A stretch of 62,693 nucleotides of DNA, taken from assembly GCA_944389215.1 (NCBI GenBank), contig CALXLN010000083.1:1-62693 (forward strand), in the 5' to 3' direction. Below, piece after piece: positions 3,901-40,263 of the stretch. The notes under the pieces were generated by a model, which was not told where the DNA came from, did not search any database, and saw only the letters and a list, made by a program, of their open reading frames with translations. Each line of letters begins with the position of its first letter. Position 1 is the first letter of the stretch. Both the position numbers and the translations under genes were made by a program. The DNA is from an uncultured Opitutales bacterium (GTDB lineage Bacteria; Verrucomicrobiota; Verrucomicrobiia; Opitutales; Intestinicryptomonadaceae).

Positions 3901-6900
3901 ATGAAAAACTTAATAAAAGGCTCTATATTCCTTTTGGCTGGAGCGGCAAGTTTTGCGGTTGCCCACGCCGGCGTGGATATAGAGGAAAGACCGTTGGTAA
4001 TGCCAACGTATGATATTGCGCCGGCAGATTTGAATCCGTTTTTCTTTACGGGGCGAACCTATCAAGGTGCTGCGGGGCATGTTTATCCATATCCGATGTA
4101 CGACGTCCTTACGGATAATAAACACGACCAAACCTATAAGGCCGTATATCTCGAAAACGACTACACCGAACTTTGCGTGATGCCGGAACTCGGCGGAAGA
4201 ATACTTTCGGCGATGGACAAAGCCACAAATTACGACTTCTTCTACCGCCAGCATGTGGTAAAGCCGGCGCTTATCGGAATGTTGGGCGCGTGGATGTCCG
4301 GCGGGGTTGAATGGAATATTCCCCACCATCACAGAGCCTCTACCCAGTTGCCGGTAGATTACACTCTCGTCGAAAACGACGACGGCAGCGCAACTGTCTG
4401 GATTGGCGAAACAGAATTGCGCCACAGAATGAAATGGATTATAGGCCTTACGATTCGTCCAGACCGTTCGTATGTCGAAGCGCATGTGCGCGTATTTAAC
4501 AATACTCCGTTCATACAGTCTATGCTTTATTGGGCAAATGTTTCGGTTCATTGCGACGAAAATTACCAGGTGATTTTCCCGCCGAAAACCCAGTACGGCA
4601 CCCAGCACGCCAAAAACGAGTTCATTGAATGGCCTATCGGAAAATCTAGGTACGGCGGCATGGATTGCAACGGTATGGATATGACCATGTGGAAGAATTA
4701 TCCCAAAGGTTGCTCGATTTTCGCATGGAATTTTGACGACGACTTCCTTGCAGGCTACGACTACGGCAAGGAAGGCGGAACGATTCACGTGGCAAACCAC
4801 CACATGGTCGGCGGCAAAAAATTCTTCCTGTGGGGCAACTGCGATTCCGCAAGAATGTGGCGCACTATGCTCACCGACCACGACGGCGACTATCTAGAAC
4901 TCATGGTTGGCGCATTCTCCGACAACCAGCCCGACTACAGCTGGATTGCACCCGGCGAAACCAGGGAGTTCAAACAATACTGGTATCCCGCAATTAAAAT
5001 TAGGGGCGTGAAAGAAGCCAATCTCGACGCCGCAGTCAACTTAGACAGAACCGCAATCGACAAGATTTTCTTCGGCTTCAACGCAACCACGGAATTTGAA
5101 GACGCAAAAGTTGTCGTTACCGACAAGGGCAAAGTAATTTACGAGGAAACGATAGATATTTCGCCCTCCAAGCCTTACATAAAGACTCTTACAGTGTCTC
5201 CCGCGTCCAAGGACGAAGACTTCCGCGTGGCGCTCTATTCCGAGGACAACAAGGAACTTGTGGCCTATCAAAAGGAGATTCTCCCCAAGATGGAAAAACC
5301 AAAGCCGGTTGTTCCGCCCACAAACCCGAAGGATTACAAGAGTGTTGAAGACCTCTATTTGGCGGGGCTCCGCATAGAACAGTTCCACAACGCCACTTTG
5401 AATCCGCTCGACTATTACAACGAGGCTCTCCGCCGCGCGCCCGACGACATCCGCACAAATACCGTAATGGGTATACGCATGGCGCGCGAAGGCAAGTATG
5501 ACGAAGCAAAAAAATATCTGCAGACTGCAATCGACCACGTAACAAAGAACTATACTGTCGCCAAGGATGTAGAGCCGATTTATTACATGGCGGTAGTCCA
5601 GCACAAGACCGGCCAGATTAAACAGGCAAAAGACAACTATTGGAAAGCTACTTGGAGGCCCGAATTCAAAGTTCCATCGTACTTTGCGCTAGCGCAAATA
5701 GCTTGCTCGGAGCGCAAGTACAAAGACGCCCTTGAATTGATTGATTCGTGCATACAGTTTAATTCAAAGAACGTTAAGGCTCTCGTGCTGAAGGCTTACA
5801 TCCTGCGCAAGCTCGGCTGCGAAGACGGCGCTGAAAAAGCCCTGGAAACGGCTATGGAAATCGACAAGCTCGACTTCTTTGCGCTGGCGGAGCAGGGGTT
5901 CCTTGACGGCAAAGAATGCGCTTTGTCGAAATACGAGAAGCAAATGGGCGACCGCTTGCAAAATATTCTCGAAACAGCCACTTATTACGGCAATGCCGGC
6001 GCGTATCCCGAAGCTATTGCAGTCTTGCAATGCTATGCGAAAAATGCCGACCAGTCAAAGCTGTCTCCGATGGCAAACTACTACATCGGCTACTATAAGG
6101 CGCTAAACGGCGACGCCGACGCAAAAGACGCTTACGCGGCCGCCGCAAAGGCTCCGACTGATTATTGCTTCCCGTTCCGCGCTGAGGAAATAGACATTCT
6201 CAATTCGGCAATCAAGGCCAATCCTTCGGACGCCAGGGCGCATTACTATCTGGGTAACCTCTACTATTTCCTTGAGCAGAAGGAAAACGGCATAAAGGAA
6301 TGGGAAAAGGCTGTCGCGATAGACCCGACCTTGGGTATTGCGTGGCGCAATTTGGGCTTTGCCTACAACCGCGCAAAGGATATCAAAAAGGCAGTGGCGG
6401 CGTATGAAAAGGCCGTCGAGGTTAATCCGTCCGACCCGCGCTACTACTTTGAGCTCGACAAGCTTTACGATATAACCGGAAAGCCCGCCAAGGAGCGCCT
6501 GGCTCTGATGGAAAAGAACGCGGCCGCCGTAGCCAAGCGCGACGACGCCATCAGCAGACAGATAGAGCTTTACATAATAGACGGCCAATACGCCCGCGCT
6601 TTGGATATGTTGCAAAAGCGCCACTTCCGCGTATGGGAAGGCGGCGGGCAAATTCACGGTACTTTTGTGGACGCCTGTCTCTTGAGCGGACTTGAGAAAT
6701 TCGACAAGAAAGACTACAAAGGCGCGCTTGCAGATTTCAGGCTCGGCAGCACATATCCGCGCAATCTTGAAGTCGGCCAGCCCATGCACGGCGGCAGATT
6801 GCCGCAGTCGCTCTACTTTGAAGCTCTCGCGCAGGAAAAGCTGGGAGATAAGGCGGCGGCGGAAGCCCTGTTTAAGAAAGTCGTTTCTTATCCCGACCGC

Positions 6901-7215
6901 GGAGCAGGCAACTACCTGAATTTCTACCGCGCGATGGCGTACAAGAAGCTCGGCGACCAGGCTGCCGCAAACAAGCTCTTGGACGCGCTGAAAGCCAGGG
7001 CTGAGAAATCCTTGAAAGTAGAAGAAAAAATGGACTTCTTCTCCAAGTTCGGCGAACAGGCAAGCAAACAGAAGCGCGATGCCCAGAACCACTATCTGCT
7101 GGGTCTGGTGGCTTTGGCAAACGGCGACAAGCTTAAGGCTAAGTCGGAGTTTGAAACCGCTATAAAGCTGGATGCCAACCATACTTGGGCAAAGTACTAT
7201 TTGGGTTCCATCTAA
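3901..7215 (+). CDS. DUF5107 domain protein with C-terminal TPR array
   Basis: 1104 residues, with a signal peptide (MKNLIKGSIFLLAGAASFAV). Residues about 30-370 match the DUF5107 pattern: YTELCVMPELGGRILSA, then GGVEWNIPHHH. This is a galactose-mutarotase-like beta-sandwich found in carbohydrate gene clusters. From about residue 480 to the end the protein is a series of tetratricopeptide repeats (for example AHYYLGNLYYFLEQKENG and AWRNLGFAYNRAKDIKKA), about ten or more copies. Family knowledge suggests a carbohydrate-binding or sugar-modifying module on a protein-interaction scaffold. It stands alone between a 260-base upstream gap and a strong terminator, so it is probably monocistronic. 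Export is inferred from the signal only. Confidence 0.85.
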   Translation: MKNLIKGSIFLLAGAASFAVAHAGVDIEERPLVMPTYDIAPADLNPFFFTGRTYQGAAGHVYPYPMYDVLTDNKHDQTYKAVYLENDYTELCVMPELGGRILSAMDKATNYDFFYRQHVVKPALIGMLGAWMSGGVEWNIPHHHRASTQLPVDYTLVENDDGSATVWIGETELRHRMKWIIGLTIRPDRSYVEAHVRVFNNTPFIQSMLYWANVSVHCDENYQVIFPPKTQYGTQHAKNEFIEWPIGKSRYGGMDCNGMDMTMWKNYPKGCSIFAWNFDDDFLAGYDYGKEGGTIHVANHHMVGGKKFFLWGNCDSARMWRTMLTDHDGDYLELMVGAFSDNQPDYSWIAPGETREFKQYWYPAIKIRGVKEANLDAAVNLDRTAIDKIFFGFNATTEFEDAKVVVTDKGKVIYEETIDISPSKPYIKTLTVSPASKDEDFRVALYSEDNKELVAYQKEILPKMEKPKPVVPPTNPKDYKSVEDLYLAGLRIEQFHNATLNPLDYYNEALRRAPDDIRTNTVMGIRMAREGKYDEAKKYLQTAIDHVTKNYTVAKDVEPIYYMAVVQHKTGQIKQAKDNYWKATWRPEFKVPSYFALAQIACSERKYKDALELIDSCIQFNSKNVKALVLKAYILRKLGCEDGAEKALETAMEIDKLDFFALAEQGFLDGKECALSKYEKQMGDRLQNILETATYYGNAGAYPEAIAVLQCYAKNADQSKLSPMANYYIGYYKALNGDADAKDAYAAAAKAPTDYCFPFRAEEIDILNSAIKANPSDARAHYYLGNLYYFLEQKENGIKEWEKAVAIDPTLGIAWRNLGFAYNRAKDIKKAVAAYEKAVEVNPSDPRYYFELDKLYDITGKPAKERLALMEKNAAAVAKRDDAISRQIELYIIDGQYARALDMLQKRHFRVWEGGGQIHGTFVDACLLSGLEKFDKKDYKGALADFRLGSTYPRNLEVGQPMHGGRLPQSLYFEALAQEKLGDKAAAEALFKKVVSYPDRGAGNYLNFYRAMAYKKLGDQAAANKLLDALKARAEKSLKVEEKMDFFSKFGEQASKQKRDAQNHYLLGLVALANGDKLKAKSEFETAIKLDANHTWAKYYLGSI

Positions 7216-7240
7216 CAGCAGATAGTACTCTAATTATTTC

Positions 7241-7271
7241 AAAACGCCTTCGTAACGGAGGCGTTTTTTTT
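7241..7271 (+). terminator. Rho-independent terminator after the DUF5107-TPR gene
   Basis: AACGCCT pairs with AGGCGTT around a short loop and is followed by a run of eight T residues. It sits 26 bases after the stop codon. Confidence 0.85.
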
Positions 7272-7533
7272 GTGGCGGATAGGGAGTTGAAGCCCCCCGC
7301 TGCAAAGGCGCAGCCGGCGCTATATTTTCGACCTTTGGAAAAGTCGAGCGCCTTGAAAAATTTTTTCTTCGCCGAACTTGCGCAGCGCTAAAAAGCGCCT
7401 GGCTTATTGACAATTCAAATGTAACAGCCTGATTTTTGGATGTTTGTAATGTTAATAATAAAATTTTTTTGCGTTTGCATATTGTGAAAATGCAATATAA
7501 AGTCTCTGGAATATTTTTTTAAGAGAAATATTT
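7272..7533 (+). other. Intergenic region upstream of dnaB
   Basis: Together with the preceding terminator this is a 318-base gap. A TTGACA at 7407-7412 could be a -35 box, but the matching -10 (TGATTT, 17-base spacer) is poor. The last 100 bases before the dnaB start are AT-rich. No coding sequence or RNA is recognised. Confidence 0.4.
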
Positions 7534-9012
7534 ATGGCGTTAAAAGAATCAGGCAGTTCAAATGGAAAATACGTTCGTCGAGGCAGGCGGGGAAGCTCTG
7601 TATCTGATGAAGGCGGCGTTGTGGATGCTGTCGGAGCTATAGCGCGGGCGGATCCGGATTTTGAACCGCCAAACAATTTGGACGCCGAACAGGGAATTTT
7701 GGCGAGCATAATGTTGGATGGAACCAAGGAGGTAATAGATTCCTGTCTGTCTGCAAAAGTTTCGCCCGATTACTTTTATAAGCCGCAGCATCAGAAAATG
7801 TTTGCGGCGATGGTGGAACTCAATAAAGCAGGCACTCCGATAGACGATATTGTCTTGGCGGAGTATTTGTCGTCAAAAAACCAATTGGATTCGGTCGGCG
7901 GGATAGACGCCATCAACGAAATAGCCGGAAGAATTGAAACATACGCGCACTATCGCCAATGGCTGGATATTGTCCGCGAAAAATATTTTTTGAGGGCGAT
8001 AATTAGGGCGTGCTCGCAGACTATATATGACGCCCAACACAACCACGGCAGCATCGACATGTTTATAGAAGGCGTCGAGGAGAAAATTCTTGGAATCAGC
8101 CAGGATAGGGTGGGCGATTCCATAAAAAAGGCTTCCGAGCAAGTGGACCTTGCTGTGCAGCAGATAAAAAGATTGATAACAAGCAAGGGTGAACTTGTCG
8201 GAGTTCCTACCGGATTTAGAGACTTGGACATCATGATGAGGGGCCTGCACGCCAATGAAATGATAGTGATTGCCGGGCGCCCCGGAACGGGAAAAACTTC
8301 AATAGCTTTAAATATAGCAGAAAATGCGCTTTTTGGCAAGAACCGCGTTCCGGTTCTTGTGTTCTCGCTGGAAATGTTGGCGGAGCAGCTGTATATGCGC
8401 ATGATTGCCTCGCGAGCGCGCATCGACCAGCACAAATTGGCGCAGGGATTTATAGAGAGGGAAAAATTGCAGGATATTTCGTCGGTCGCAAAGGAATTGA
8501 GCGAGGCCCCCATGTGGATTGACGATACCGCGGGCATCAGCATTTTGGAAATGCGCGCGAAGGCGCGGAGGTTAAACCAGCAGTTGGGCGGCAAATTGGG
8601 CCTTGTGATAGTGGACTACCTGCAGTTGCTCAGAGGTTCTGATCCGTCTTTGCCCCGCGAGCAGGAAGTCGCTGAAATATCAAGGGGAATGAAGGCCATG
8701 TCAAAAGAGTTGCGCGCGCCGGTGGTGGTTTTGGCGCAGCTCAACCGAGACAGCGAAAAAGAAACCCGCTATCCGCGCCCGAGCGATTTGCGCGAATCCG
8801 GCTCAATTGAACAGGACGCCGACGCAATTTTGCTCTTGAGTAGGCAGAGAAAATCTGACACAGATAATTCCGACATTTCAAATTCTCAATGGCTCATCAG
8901 AGCCGAACTTGCAAAACAGCGCAATGGGCCTACGGGTGTGGTTACATTGCTCTTTAACAGAAATTACACGCGTTACGAAAACTACAGCCCCAGGGAAGAT
9001 GTCAACATTTAA
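7534..9012 (+). CDS. dnaB: Replicative DNA helicase DnaB
   Basis: 492 residues. DnaB is the hexameric ATP-driven helicase that unwinds DNA at the replication fork. A basic, Gly/Ser-rich extension of about 45 residues precedes the usual N-terminal domain (NNLDAEQGILASIM onward). The RecA-like C-terminal domain holds Walker A GRPGTGKTS near residue 248, Walker B-type VIVDYLQLL, and the C-terminal SGSIEQDADAILLL motif. Length is slightly above the usual 450-470 because of the extension. The stop overlaps the bamA start by 14 bases, so the two are translationally linked. No intein is seen: both the Walker A and DYLQLL sites are uninterrupted. Confidence 0.96.
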   Translation: MALKESGSSNGKYVRRGRRGSSVSDEGGVVDAVGAIARADPDFEPPNNLDAEQGILASIMLDGTKEVIDSCLSAKVSPDYFYKPQHQKMFAAMVELNKAGTPIDDIVLAEYLSSKNQLDSVGGIDAINEIAGRIETYAHYRQWLDIVREKYFLRAIIRACSQTIYDAQHNHGSIDMFIEGVEEKILGISQDRVGDSIKKASEQVDLAVQQIKRLITSKGELVGVPTGFRDLDIMMRGLHANEMIVIAGRPGTGKTSIALNIAENALFGKNRVPVLVFSLEMLAEQLYMRMIASRARIDQHKLAQGFIEREKLQDISSVAKELSEAPMWIDDTAGISILEMRAKARRLNQQLGGKLGLVIVDYLQLLRGSDPSLPREQEVAEISRGMKAMSKELRAPVVVLAQLNRDSEKETRYPRPSDLRESGSIEQDADAILLLSRQRKSDTDNSDISNSQWLIRAELAKQRNGPTGVVTLLFNRNYTRYENYSPREDVNI

Positions 9013-34990: not shown

Positions 34991-35989
34991 TCAGTTAAAG
35001 AAAGCCTTCGCCCCAATGGCAGTAATTCCACGCATGTTAACGTAGCGGGAACGAAGAAGAGATAGGTCGCGATGTCCCATATTAAGCTGCAATCGCGGCA
35101 AGTCTCTAAACCGCTTGGCAAAATAGCTCGCGTAGGTGTGGCGCAAAACATCTTGAACCCAAGTGCCTTTAAATCCAGAGCTTTCTCGAATGTCCTTCCA
35201 CTTTCTCCGCCAGTTTGGCGGACATATCGCGGATTCGTCTTCTCCTTTATGTTTAGTCAAAATGCGTTTCAGCGTCGGGACAATTTCAACATGGCGCACG
35301 CCTCCTGTTTTAGAGCATTGGGAACGCACAGTGATAAAATTTTCCTCCAAGTCTATATCTTTCCATTTTAGGTGCCGTACTTCTCTGGGGCGAATTCCCG
35401 CAAATAATAAGAGCCCAACCGCAGGCAGACAGTTGCTATTTTTTTGAACCTTTGCACTTTTTAAGAGAGATTCCGCCTGCGCATATGTTAGCGGAACGAT
35501 TTCCTTTTCGACGACCTTGCGCTTTTCAATAAGCTTTATGGGGTTCCTGTCGCACCATTCGCGGCGGAAGGCAAATTCAAACAGTCCGTGAAGCATAGTG
35601 CGTGCTTTGTTAAATTGGCTTGGGGTGGAAAAGGTTTCCGACAGCCATGTTTCGCAGTCGGATACGCTAACTTCGGAAAAATTGCATTCCGCAAGTTTGG
35701 GGCTGGATTTTATCAGACGGTTACCGAGATAGCGGATATCCCTTATTGAATCGGGGCGCAAGCAGCGTTTTGTTTGCAAATAAAGGGAGAAGCCTTCCGC
35801 AAGCCGCATTTCTTTGGAGCGGATATAGCGCTTGCCCGTCTCTATTATTTTAGAGCAAAATAGAATCGGCGCAATATTTGAACCTTGGGGCAAGGTATCT
35901 AGAATATTTTTTACCAGCCTTGCGGCGTCAAGCAGTGTTATGCCAGTACTCTTCAAAAGAGCGTTTGCTGAAATAAATTCGTTGTCCAT
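34991..35989 (-). CDS. Tyrosine-type site-specific recombinase/integrase
   Basis: 332 residues. Residues about 75-165 form the SAM-like core-binding domain (DSIRDIRYLGNRLIKSSPKL…). The catalytic domain shows Arg I in AGIRPREVRHLKW, a Lys in SQCSKTGG, DVLRHTYASYF (Arg II and the following His, with Asp in place of the first His of the HxxR box), MGHRDLSLLRSRYVN with the conserved His, and the nucleophilic Tyr. All residues needed for cleavage appear present. It cuts and joins DNA through a 3'-phosphotyrosine. It is divergent from the cargo genes across a 207-base region containing mirrored palindromes. Confidence 0.88.
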   Translation of the reverse strand: MDNEFISANALLKSTGITLLDAARLVKNILDTLPQGSNIAPILFCSKIIETGKRYIRSKEMRLAEGFSLYLQTKRCLRPDSIRDIRYLGNRLIKSSPKLAECNFSEVSVSDCETWLSETFSTPSQFNKARTMLHGLFEFAFRREWCDRNPIKLIEKRKVVEKEIVPLTYAQAESLLKSAKVQKNSNCLPAVGLLLFAGIRPREVRHLKWKDIDLEENFITVRSQCSKTGGVRHVEIVPTLKRILTKHKGEDESAICPPNWRRKWKDIRESSGFKGTWVQDVLRHTYASYFAKRFRDLPRLQLNMGHRDLSLLRSRYVNMRGITAIGAKAFFN

Positions 35990-36196
35990 GGTATTTAGAA
36001 TACCTATGTCAACATTAAAAATCTAAAATACTTTGGAAGTATTTGAATAAAAATGAACTAAGAGTCTATATCATAAGAATTCAAGTAGTATCATTCCTAA
36101 AAGTTTAGACTGCTTTTTTTAACGGATTTATTTGATAGTAAGCATATTAAGAAATAAGAAAGTGAATAGTATTCTAAATACTCCATATTATCTATT
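35990..36196. promoter_or_regulatory. Divergent control region with mirrored 13-base motifs
   Basis: GTATTTAGAATAC (35991-36003) lies two bases before the recombinase start, and its exact reverse complement GTATTCTAAATAC (36169-36181) lies 15 bases before the P-loop gene start. Each is itself nearly palindromic (GTATT…AATAC). A third inverted repeat, AATACTT-TGG-AAGTATT, is at 36027-36043 and shares the AATAC/GTATT half-sites. This looks like a set of operator or recombinase-arm sites controlling both transcription directions. Confidence 0.5.
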
Positions 36197-36673
36197 ATGA
36201 GTATTGAAAACATTATTTTGGTTTCAGGACGAATAGGTTCAGGTAAATCAAATACATTAGCCAGAATTTATTTAAGGTTGTGTCAAAAACAGCCTAGGCA
36301 TTCATTTAACGGAATAGATGTTTTTACGCCACAAATACCCTCGCTTCCCATAAAAAATGACTTTTATGCAATTTATGAATCAATAAATAATGTAAAAATA
36401 GGAATAATATCCGCAGGAGATTATAAGGAAGATTTTTTGCATATCTTCAGCAAAATTAGAAATAAAGCAGACGTACTAATTTGCGCCTCTCGTTTAATAG
36501 ACAATGGCGATTCTGTTCTCAGGTACATAACATCGGATTTGTTTAACGAGGGAGTTTCAGTGGATTTAAATTTTTGCACATTCCCTACATATAGTGGTGC
36601 CGCGTTCCAAAATATGCAAATTTCAATAACAGATGCCATTTTGCGACATCTTGATGATATTTATCTTAACTAA
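36197..36673 (+). CDS. Small P-loop protein of unknown function
   Basis: 158 residues, not assigned to a family. A Walker A motif GRIGSGKSN lies at residues 11-19, immediately after the first strand (ENIILVS), so the N-terminal fold is that of a P-loop NTPase. A hydrophobic strand KADVLICASR near residue 97 could be the Walker B or base-recognition strand, but no clear DE pair follows. AT-rich codon use matches the rest of the island. It leads a likely operon with the TM2 gene 25 bases downstream. It could be an NTP-driven switch or kinase. Confidence 0.65.
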   Translation: MSIENIILVSGRIGSGKSNTLARIYLRLCQKQPRHSFNGIDVFTPQIPSLPIKNDFYAIYESINNVKIGIISAGDYKEDFLHIFSKIRNKADVLICASRLIDNGDSVLRYITSDLFNEGVSVDLNFCTFPTYSGAAFQNMQISITDAILRHLDDIYLN

Positions 36674-36698
36674 TAAATAATAAAAATAAATAATAAAA

Positions 36699-37064
36699 AT
36701 GAAAAATAACGAATCTAATCGAACGGAAGCCGGTTCTACAAAAGAAACTATGGCGGACATGCAGTCTATGATGATGCAACAAATGATGCAACAGCAGATA
36801 ATGCAACAGAACGCTATGAATCAGCAAATGTTCAATCAAATGAAGGAAATGAATGTTTCTGACAAGAGTAGACTAACTTATATTTTGCTAGCACTTTTTC
36901 TCGGCCCATTGGGAGTACATAACTTTTACGCAGGGCATTCTGGAAAAGGGATATTTCAATTAATTTTGTCTATAACCCTTGTTGGAACTTTAATTACAGT
37001 TCCATGGTGTATTTTAGATATGATCTGCGTAAAAAAAGATGGTGAAGGTAGAAAGTTTAAATAA
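36699..37064 (+). CDS. TM2-domain membrane protein
   Basis: 121 residues. Residues about 18-50 are almost entirely Met and Gln (MMMQQMMQQQIMQQNAMNQQ). A TM2 domain at about 55-115 follows: LALFLGPLGVHNFYAGH, a second hydrophobic segment LILSITLVGTLITVPW, and the terminal ILDMICVKK. TM2 proteins have two membrane helices joined by a short loop and occur with signalling or envelope domains. The stop is two bases before the lipoprotein start, which suggests coupled expression. Confidence 0.88.
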   Translation: MKNNESNRTEAGSTKETMADMQSMMMQQMMQQQIMQQNAMNQQMFNQMKEMNVSDKSRLTYILLALFLGPLGVHNFYAGHSGKGIFQLILSITLVGTLITVPWCILDMICVKKDGEGRKFK

Positions 37065-37066
37065 AT

Positions 37067-39076
37067 ATGAAAATACACATACTAAATATATCATCAATTT
37101 TCATTTCAATCATGCTGCTTGTCGGATGCGGAGAACCTGGCTCGACAAAGTGGAGATTGGATAATGAAAGTCTTTCGGCAGATGAGATAGCCCAACTAAA
37201 GACGTCTATAGCGTTTAAAGACGAGTTTTTTAAAAACGGAGCGAAATGGAATACTCTTAGCACCAAAGATTGGGCGAAGTTTTTGTCGTTTTTCCCGGAA
37301 TACTCGCGAGAATGCGATAAGTTAAATGGGTGGGGTCGATTTACAGGAAGTGATTGGGCGATACTGCTTTCAGAGGAAAGCAGATTTGAGAATCAATGCG
37401 AAAAAAATTCAGGTTGGTCGAAAATGTCTCCTGAAGATTGGATTTACCTATTGTCAAAACAACCCAAGTATGAGGTCAAAGCTGACGAATCAAAATCTTG
37501 GAATAAATTCTCTACCGAAGATTGGGTAAAAGCACTTTTAAGCAACGGTGAGTTTTTTATTAAAAAATGCGATGCGCTTAATATATGGAAAAAATTAAAA
37601 GTAGCGGATTGGTTTAGTTTAATTAAAAAAAATAAGAATTACCAATCACTTTTAGACAAATGCATAAAATTTGACACTCTTTCAAAAAACGATTGGGAAT
37701 CATTAATTAAATTAGATAAAAAATTTATAGATGTTTGTAAAAAAAATAATGCCTTAAAATTTTTTGATGTGAAAGATTTATTAAATCTAATTGATAAAGA
37801 TAATATCGAACTACTTTCAAATGAAATAGATTGGAATAGTTTTGATACAACTAAAGGAAATGATTATAGAATAAGGGAAAATAAAGAATTTTTAGTAAAA
37901 ATTATAAAGGAAAAATCCTATATAATCGAAAAATGCCCCGACAATGTTATAAAATCTATGAGCAATTATGAATGGATTGAACTATTAGGGGCAAATATCA
38001 ATCTTTCCAAATTTGCAGATAAATACAATATTTGGAAGTCCTTTAATTTTAGCGATTGGAATAATTTATTAAAGAAGAACAAAGATTATACAGACACATT
38101 TATAAAATACGAACAATGGAAAGAGTGGGAAAAATACAGCGCACGGTCGCTTTGGAATACTATCGCTGAAGGTAATCCTGCCCTGTCTCACTTAAAAGAG
38201 TTACATACTCGTTCTGTTGCAGAGTGGATAAAAATATTGAGTACTAATCCATCTGAATTTGAAAATTTTGAAAAATATGCGGACGTAAATTCACTAAGAT
38301 CTTCCGATTGGAGTAGTATTCTAATTTCCAATCCAGCACTTGCTGAATATGCAAAAAAGTATAATATCTTTGAAACAAAATTGTGGGGTGAAGATATTGT
38401 AAAAGTTGTAATTAAATATCCGGAATTGGCTAATTTATTGAGAAACAAAAAAGTTCTTGGTAAATTAGATGAACCAAAATGGAAGAAACTCGTCCTCGCA
38501 GTTCCATCGTTGATTCCACTTTATGAAAAGACAAAACGTTTCGATGAGAAATGGATTCAGTGTCTTATTTCCGATTATGACAAAGAAATTGAAGATTTTT
38601 TAGCCTTTGAGGCGTATAAAGGTTATGCGGGTTCCGGTATTATCGCGAGAAAGTGGGAGTATTTATTAAAAAATCAACCTCGTTTTGTTGAGAACTATGA
38701 AAATAAAGAAATTATATATGTTCTCCGCCATCATCCGCACGTAGAGGTTAATGGAATTGGTGCAATATTGTTTAAAATGATTCGGGACGATAAAAATCAA
38801 AAAGCATTTTTCATGTTAAAAGCTATAGCAACTCCTATAGAAGGAGAAAGGATAGGAGAGATTTATGAACATGAAAGCAATATGGGATATATTTATTATT
38901 ACCTTGCCAGATGTTACAAAGATGGACTGTGCGTAGAGAGAGACGAGAATAAGGCGAAAGCATATTATTTGCTGATGAAAAATGCAGGTGGTGATGCCAA
39001 AAGTGTTAATTTGGATGCGAACGGTAAGAATGAAGAATTTGAAAAATATTATGAAAAAGTCGGAAACGACATTTAA
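37067..39076 (+). CDS. Lipoprotein made of about fifteen 28-residue 'DW' repeats, Sel1-like end
   Basis: 669 residues. The signal ends in lipobox LLVGC (Cys 21), so it is a predicted lipoprotein. From residue about 58 to 500 it is a tandem array with a period near 28: W-x3-(F/L)-(S/T)-x2-DW-x2-LL-x4-P-x-(F/Y)-x6-(N)-x-W. Clear copies include WNTLSTKDWAKFLSFFPEYS, WGRFTGSDWAILLSEESRF and WSKMSPEDWIYLLSKQPKY; later copies diverge. Near residues 610-645, LARCYKDGLCVERDENKAKA fits a Sel1-type repeat. I know of no named function for this repeat; an alpha-solenoid for protein binding is inferred. Very AT-rich coding. Confidence 0.75.
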   Translation: MKIHILNISSIFISIMLLVGCGEPGSTKWRLDNESLSADEIAQLKTSIAFKDEFFKNGAKWNTLSTKDWAKFLSFFPEYSRECDKLNGWGRFTGSDWAILLSEESRFENQCEKNSGWSKMSPEDWIYLLSKQPKYEVKADESKSWNKFSTEDWVKALLSNGEFFIKKCDALNIWKKLKVADWFSLIKKNKNYQSLLDKCIKFDTLSKNDWESLIKLDKKFIDVCKKNNALKFFDVKDLLNLIDKDNIELLSNEIDWNSFDTTKGNDYRIRENKEFLVKIIKEKSYIIEKCPDNVIKSMSNYEWIELLGANINLSKFADKYNIWKSFNFSDWNNLLKKNKDYTDTFIKYEQWKEWEKYSARSLWNTIAEGNPALSHLKELHTRSVAEWIKILSTNPSEFENFEKYADVNSLRSSDWSSILISNPALAEYAKKYNIFETKLWGEDIVKVVIKYPELANLLRNKKVLGKLDEPKWKKLVLAVPSLIPLYEKTKRFDEKWIQCLISDYDKEIEDFLAFEAYKGYAGSGIIARKWEYLLKNQPRFVENYENKEIIYVLRHHPHVEVNGIGAILFKMIRDDKNQKAFFMLKAIATPIEGERIGEIYEHESNMGYIYYYLARCYKDGLCVERDENKAKAYYLLMKNAGGDAKSVNLDANGKNEEFEKYYEKVGNDI

Positions 39077-39087
39077 ACAATAATATA

Positions 39088-39447
39088 ATGACAAAAATCA
39101 TAACACTGTTTTTTTTGTTAGTTCTTTATTTTGTAATTTTGACGCCCCAAGATTGCATATCTTGGGCTGTGTCAAAAAACGATGAAATTAGACAGTCAGT
39201 GGCTAATGTAACAAACTCAACATTAAAAAATTACCAATGCATAAAATGCGAAGTTTGTGTAAAAAAAGACAAGTATCCGTCTTTTAGTGGTTGTCCCGAA
39301 GGCGGAAATCATAATTGGAAAGATTTAGGTACATACGGAGACAACCAATTTTTATGTAAAAAATGTTCCATTCTCTTAAAATCTAAATCTATGCCCAATT
39401 GCGCTGGTTGTCCAAAAGGTGGAAATCATGAGTGGAAAAAGTTGTAA
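39088..39447 (+). CDS. Small exported protein with duplicated Cys/His zinc-ribbon-like motif
   Basis: 119 residues. A hydrophobic N-terminus (ITLFFLLVLYFVIL) suggests a signal or anchor. Two repeats follow: residues about 50-83 (YQCIKCEVCV…GCPEGGNHNWKDLG) and 89-119 (FLCKKCSILL…GCPKGGNHEWKKL). Each has CxxC, then GCPxGGNHxWK, giving three Cys and one His that could bind a metal such as zinc. Similar short motifs occur in scattered bacterial and phage proteins, but I know of no assigned function. It lies 11 bases after the DW-repeat gene. Confidence 0.65.
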   Translation: MTKIITLFFLLVLYFVILTPQDCISWAVSKNDEIRQSVANVTNSTLKNYQCIKCEVCVKKDKYPSFSGCPEGGNHNWKDLGTYGDNQFLCKKCSILLKSKSMPNCAGCPKGGNHEWKKL

Positions 39448-39498
39448 AACCAAATAGATCTTTCTGATATCTAAAAAAAACTATTTGTTTTTTATTAC

Positions 39499-40263
39499 AT
39501 GAAATTTTTCATTATTATAACTCTCATAATTTGTTTATCAACAGGTGCGTTTGCCTATTCCCAGATTCCAGAAGAGGAAAGAAAATGCGAATACAAATTA
39601 AAATACTCAGACAGACTTTTTCTTTTTCCGGAGAAGGGGATAAATAAGGCTCAAAGGGAAGTTAACGAAGCTATAAAGCGCTTGAAAAGTCGTTATACTA
39701 GCGAATTTGTAGATGATTTAAAAAGCTTCTTAAATGATCCATGTCTATTGAGTCCCATTAATGAAAATGAACTGTTGTTGTCTTCGGAAATTTCTCAAGA
39801 TTCAGAAGATTTATTTTCTGTACGCATTGACATATATTCATATTTTCACGGTTCAAATGGGTGCCAACAAAAAGTGGTATGTTTAAATTTTGCAATGTCT
39901 GAATACGGGGCTAAAGAAATTTTGTTATCAGATTTAATTCTTAGCACAAACACATTAAAACTTCTACGTTTATCCATAAAAAACTTACGGGGAAAGATTG
40001 ATGATAATATTATATCATCTTTATTAGACGAAGGTGGACTCGAAAAATATGAAAACGCATCCGGCAATACAAAGCCGCTTTCGGAACTAATCCACTTTAC
40101 AATAAACCTGCAAGCAATGACTATAATTTTTCCTGCTTACACAATTTCCTGCGGGGCAGACGGTATCCTCTGTTCGGAGATTTCAATAAAAGAACTCGAC
40201 AAAATTTTGACGCCATATGGTAAAAAACTTTTCGGAGATATTAACAAACCACGCTATAGATAG
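39499..40263 (+). CDS. Exported RsiV/DUF3298-like protein
   Basis: 254 residues with a signal peptide (MKFFIIITLIICLSTGAFA). The C-terminal region (FTINLQAMTIIFPAYTISCG, then SEISIKELDKILTPYGK) fits the DUF3298 domain, which in RsiV-type proteins is extracytoplasmic and can bind ligands such as lysozyme. The central part (LDIYSYFHGSNG-like region, residues about 105-150) fits the preceding DUF4163-type half. No membrane anchor or sigma-factor-binding region is seen, so it is not a complete anti-sigma factor. It is the last island gene, 51 bases after the Cys/His protein. Confidence 0.6.
   Translation: MKFFIIITLIICLSTGAFAYSQIPEEERKCEYKLKYSDRLFLFPEKGINKAQREVNEAIKRLKSRYTSEFVDDLKSFLNDPCLLSPINENELLLSSEISQDSEDLFSVRIDIYSYFHGSNGCQQKVVCLNFAMSEYGAKEILLSDLILSTNTLKLLRLSIKNLRGKIDDNIISSLLDEGGLEKYENASGNTKPLSELIHFTINLQAMTIIFPAYTISCGADGILCSEISIKELDKILTPYGKKLFGDINKPRYR

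Follow-up and report, generated by a model that had tools for sequence, protein, structure and literature searches.

Invertible promoters give gut bacteria on/off diversity at the cell surface. In the enterobacterial fim switch, a tyrosine recombinase (FimB or FimE) adjoins the invertible promoter of a surface operon, and in the capsule switches of Bacteroides, which Coyne and colleagues (2003, cited in PMC11892184) reportedly described together with the Mpi recombinase, a site-specific recombinase inverts promoter segments before surface operons; Mpi is a serine recombinase and acts globally on many promoters. The invertons of Akkermansia muciniphila consist of short paired inverted sites around a short segment, in the vicinity of genes for PEP-CTERM proteins, autotransporters and capsule. 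For the Akkermansia motif CGGATT..AATCCG (credited in PMC13343947 to Jiang et al. 2019), inversion and an effect on the capsule have been shown experimentally (PMC13343947), and inverton group 138, which carries this motif, is enriched near PEP-CTERM genes (PMC11892184). The nine inverton-invertase links drawn in PMC11892184 all concern Clostridia and Bacteroidia, and the main text of PMC13343947 names no recombinase, integrase or invertase.

The locus described here lies in a window of 62,693 nucleotides (the whole stretch of DNA analysed) from an uncultured Opitutales bacterium of the family Intestinicryptomonadaceae, and is very probably a phase-variable operon, controlled by an invertible promoter that has a tyrosine recombinase of its own. 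Coordinates and a PF00589 match agree with an earlier note that this recombinase, on the minus strand, is oriented divergently to a tightly spaced run of five forward genes. That note had overlooked a perfect 13-bp inverted pair between the recombinase and the cargo, which a repeat scan located. The recombinase-side site, GTATT-TAG-AATAC (35991..36003, plus strand), abuts the recombinase start codon, and the cargo-side site, GTATT-CTA-AATAC (36169..36181, plus strand), carries the reverse complement of its spacer. The two are the sole exact copies of GTATT-N3-AATAC in the window, and they stand 165 bp apart (interior, 36004..36168), so that inverted repeats bound a short intergenic segment of 191 bp upstream of a gene. 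A 90.6% identical copy of the segment elsewhere in the same genome (G000:C6:51516) is without a recombinase, has a damaged distal site, and adjoins a PEP-CTERM fragment and glycosyltransferase-like genes. The Mpi and fim switches are likened to this locus by their working and not by sequence; the enzyme here, unlike Mpi, is a tyrosine recombinase and usually stands beside its own switch, and the fim sites and organisms differ. In Akkermansia genomes homologous recombinases (about 37-45% identical) adjoin such sites; however, the arms are GGATT/AATCC in Akkermansia and GTATT/AATAC here, where the full CGGATT..AATCCG motif is lacking, and the window switch adjoins its proposed enzyme, whereas the Akkermansia enzyme is unnamed in PMC13343947 and PMC11892184. 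The locus is best explained as a familiar type of switch with a new class of site, GTATT-N3-AATAC, and its recombinase assignment can be tested.

The recombinase (34991..35989; PF00589, E 2e-12), the proposed invertase of the adjoining switch, is a member of the phage-integrase family (PHROG 1). R200, K227, R283, H306 and Y316 are conserved in an alignment of 21 homologues, and this conservation of catalytic residues in a tyrosine recombinase that adjoins the switch points to a putative cognate enzyme. In all 21 aligned recombinases the His of the HxxR motif is replaced by Asp (DVLRH; residue 280, at about 35150 in the window). Its own genome holds close paralogues, and 12 further genomes of the family hold close homologues; overall, these recombinases are found in gut Opitutales, including the isolate Puniceicoccaceae bacterium Marseille-Q1082 (G006), which carries four switches, with more distant relatives in Akkermansia. 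Close matches in viral contigs amount to two loci on one record, which matches the G006 isolate. A Verrucomicrobiales MAG (L145) encodes a 54% identical recombinase whose paired sites read GTATA-TAT-TATAC and lie about 157 bp from each other, indicating that the arms changed together with the recombinase, and the site pair is absent at distant recombinases (about 40%) from another family of the order.

Upstream of about 30 recombinase homologues the same arrangement recurs in nearly all complete loci: one site lies at the recombinase start, and its inverted counterpart follows after 149-166 bp in the switches examined beside recombinases. The pattern GTATTNNNAATAC-N141-171-GTATTNNNAATAC was counted at 37 places across 19 genomes of the family, 13 of which contain it, and a reversed control pattern at none. 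The spacers, that is, the three central bases of each site, match within the pair in every one of the 35 switches with usable flanks, over 15 kinds of spacer, where shuffled pairing reached at most 12 matches in 100,000 shuffles; because these 35 loci are related to one another, the count overstates their independence. Viral contigs, taken as an outside control, hold 31 pairs of the same pattern with matching spacers in 5, and 2 of these 5 come from a record of the same clade. A role of the spacers in keeping switches of the same genome separate was not supported, as a shared spacer occurs in 4 of 49 within-genome pairs, against an expected 3.9. Some switches of the family have no adjacent recombinase, and there the enzyme may work in trans, or a different one may be responsible.

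The segment also carries what looks like part of a promoter. In nearly every segment TTGACA or a near variant lies at one inner end, 2-3 bases from the site, and the cargo-side flank just outside the site has the majority sequence TATAT (T24 A21 T28 A27 T20 of 35), so that whenever the TTGACA end is turned toward the cargo, 16-18 nt separate it from the -10-like flank. In the window the proposed -35 box, TTGACA (36007..36012, minus strand), stands in the position conserved in nearly all homologous switches and faces the recombinase as assembled, and the proposed -10 box, CATATT (36184..36189, plus strand), lies beyond the cargo-side site. TTGACA faces away from the cargo in 32 of the 35 assembled switches, the window included, and faces it in three (G003:C142, G008:C18:11963 and G005:C229), so that both orientations occur among homologues; for switches without a recombinase, the cargo side was set by hand as that of the adjacent co-directed PEP-CTERM gene. 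Split-promoter scores show only a modest excess for the real cargo flank over shuffled flanks (9.7 versus 9.1, P 4e-4), and so modest an excess suggests rather than demonstrates a split promoter.

Comparison of homologous switches supplies evidence that inversion has happened among these elements. Two paralogous switches of G008 have cargo flanks that are 71% identical, and their segments align at 77% over 188 columns once one of them is inverted, as opposed to 61% with large gaps when they are aligned un-inverted. Between two Akkermansia loci (L238 and L239) the recombinase-side flank is 79% identical, and the segment is 74% identical when inverted versus 48% when aligned directly. From such comparisons we infer that the segment in the window inverts in this strain too, and that it does so by this recombinase. 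The enzyme would act on GTATT-N3-AATAC at 35991-36003 and 36169-36181 and invert the 191-bp segment between them, with strand exchange requiring matching central bases in both sites. In the assembled state the -35 box, at the left end of the segment, would point at the recombinase and leave the cargo without this promoter (OFF), and inversion would set TTGACA 18 nt from CATATT before the first cargo gene, leading to transcription of all five genes; both the split promoter and the assignment of ON and OFF are predictions read from the sequence.

Palindromic 13-bp sites that flank a divergent intergenic region, one of them abutting the recombinase start, might instead be operators for divergent promoters, bound by the recombinase or a regulator with no inversion of DNA. 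Operators do not need matching central bases, yet the spacers match within every pair over 15 kinds, and such paired changes are demanded by recombination between two sites and not by an operator pair; homologous segments are, furthermore, found inverted between their sites, and related Akkermansia elements invert in experiments (PMC13343947); operators are very improbable. It is also very unlikely that the locus is an ordinary integrative island, into which the recombinase inserted AT-rich cargo and of whose attachment site the inverted sites form part. An integrase island had been the proposal of the earlier note, and the GC and codon-use comparison that it called for bore out part of its compositional argument: the cargo genes, with GC 33-35% and GC3 26-35%, do look foreign beside the flanking GH123, GntR and GH106 genes (GC 47-49%, GC3 52-55%), but the recombinase, with GC 46% and GC3 48%, resembles the flanks, so that the compositional unit spans only about 36.0-40.4 kb and its boundary falls between recombinase and cargo. 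The phage-integrase family membership of the recombinase and the differences in cargo between loci would suit an island; on the other side, the locus has no tRNA, no direct repeats (attL/attR) at its ends and no third site near the end of the cargo, the site pair is inverted at a spacing of 149-166 bp with covarying spacers, and genes of ordinary composition follow many switches. Of the flanks by which an empty site in relatives would be recognized, the GH123 gene lacks a counterpart in all 18 further family genomes, and relatives of the GntR gene are only 35-47% identical. The 'integrase' is thus best read as a promoter-switch invertase, and its five AT-rich, mostly envelope-directed neighbors were probably acquired horizontally.

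The remaining proposal, that the five genes form a conserved but undescribed envelope system for defense, sensing or attachment and move together as one block, draws on their tight spacing, their common AT-rich composition, the four exported or membrane products, and an RsiV-like fold that binds lysozyme in Bacillus (5jen). We consider it improbable, because a search of 273 genomes of the order found the five-gene order nowhere else, with single genes in other company or absent, and because PADLOC returned weak and partial matches only, nearly all to the P-loop protein, which leaves the suggested defense role without support. The identities given in the earlier note for the first four products were borne out, as was the statement that the products are mostly exported or membrane proteins. 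The first gene (36197..36673, plus strand, as are all five) encodes a small P-loop protein with the Walker A motif GRIGSGKS, whose predicted model (pLDDT 80) has no fold match in the PDB at E < 0.001. Its close relatives (41% identity) occur only as the first gene behind two other switches of the family (G007:C6 and G006:C2), where they precede different genes, namely PEP-CTERM proteins (with pentapeptide repeats at L048), and the P-loop protein has no phage relative, which counts against a phage origin. The second gene (36699..37064) encodes a TM2-domain membrane protein (PF05154, 3e-13). The third (37067..39076) encodes a lipoprotein of 669 aa that contains DW repeats, has a C-terminus weakly resembling Sel1 and finds no sequence match in the PDB; the DW repeat belongs to no strong Pfam family, and relatives of the protein occur elsewhere in the family without switches. 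At four loci (L089, L090, L095 and L097), related DW-repeat proteins that are cytoplasmic adjoin genes for PD-(D/E)XK-type-like nucleases. The fourth gene (39088..39447) encodes an exported protein with a duplicated Cys/His motif (sequence repeat D1) and has no relative in the genus.

RsiV is a lysozyme-sensing anti-sigma factor, and the earlier note had likened to it the exported product of the fifth gene (39499..40263). The likeness stands at the level of the fold: among its homologues the match is clearer (2.9e-8), and the predicted structure, a model of moderate confidence, matches 3cyg, 3s5t, 5jen and 4e72 in Foldseek at E of 1.1e-4 or below, which suggests an extracellular fold of the DUF3298/PdaC type, and a C-terminal motif is shared as well. 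The match of its own sequence to RsiV/DUF3298 is weak (E 0.004), and no sigma factor is encoded among the cargo genes or by the next gene (GntR), unlike RsiV with its ECF partner; the likeness is supported for the fold and not for a lysozyme-related function. Relatives of this protein occur only away from any switch and none is found on plasmids. The role of the cargo is most likely the variable expression of envelope components, that is, surface variation, and attachment, sensing or surface variation at the envelope are all possible.

The recombinases can be followed into Akkermansia, where 30 loci were tested and two (L150 and L155) repeat others, leaving 28 distinct. At 22 of these 28 the homologous recombinase adjoins perfect inverted repeats that are at least 12 bp long and separated by 111-174 bp, compared with 3 of 600 shuffled sequences; 21 of the 22 pairs have TCAA or GCAAG at an inner end, 6 have a GATT-N3-AATC core, and some of the homologues adjoin the published CGGATT..AATCCG motif. 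The recombinase family thus adjoins such sites in two verrucomicrobial lineages, with GTATT-N3-AATAC as the Opitutales motif, and because PMC13343947 names no enzyme and the links in PMC11892184 lie outside Akkermansia, it is a strong candidate for the Akkermansia invertases, so that which enzyme flips which switch becomes directly testable. A wider reading, which we put forward tentatively and rate at somewhat less than an even chance, is that Verrucomicrobiota share a phylum-wide family of dedicated tyrosine invertases, including the unnamed enzymes behind the invertons for capsule and surface in Akkermansia. The arms and the crossover spacers would have diverged between switches, and a movable -35 box would be separated from a fixed -10 box by the recombination site itself, so that inversion would complete or break the promoter, which bound recombinase could also block.

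A 77% identical paralogue in the same genome (L009, G000:C35; recombinase 6839-7834) retains the recombinase-side site only, and directly past it begins an AT-rich element that encodes a different tyrosine integrase of its own and seems to have disrupted this switch; in Akkermansia, a prophage truncates one repeat of an inverton (PMC13343947). At three other loci (L011, L046 and L082), the contig ends within or just past the recombinase or switch, which would be expected where assembly is interrupted by repeats or mixed orientations.

What lies behind the switches varies from locus to locus, and many switches precede genes of ordinary composition. Among the first genes, those for PEP-CTERM proteins predominate; others encode autotransporter-like proteins, lipoproteins or glycosyltransferases, or belong to a dynamin-like set or a protein kinase set. 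Eight of the switches without a recombinase precede a PEP-CTERM gene and one (G010:C3) has no clear cargo. Reading the locus as a switch explains why unrelated AT-rich surface genes recur beside the same 'integrase'. One switch of G008 (C17; L051, 10620-17000) precedes a protein kinase, an FHA-like and phosphatase-type set and a second kinase, that is, a putative phase-variable signaling cluster.
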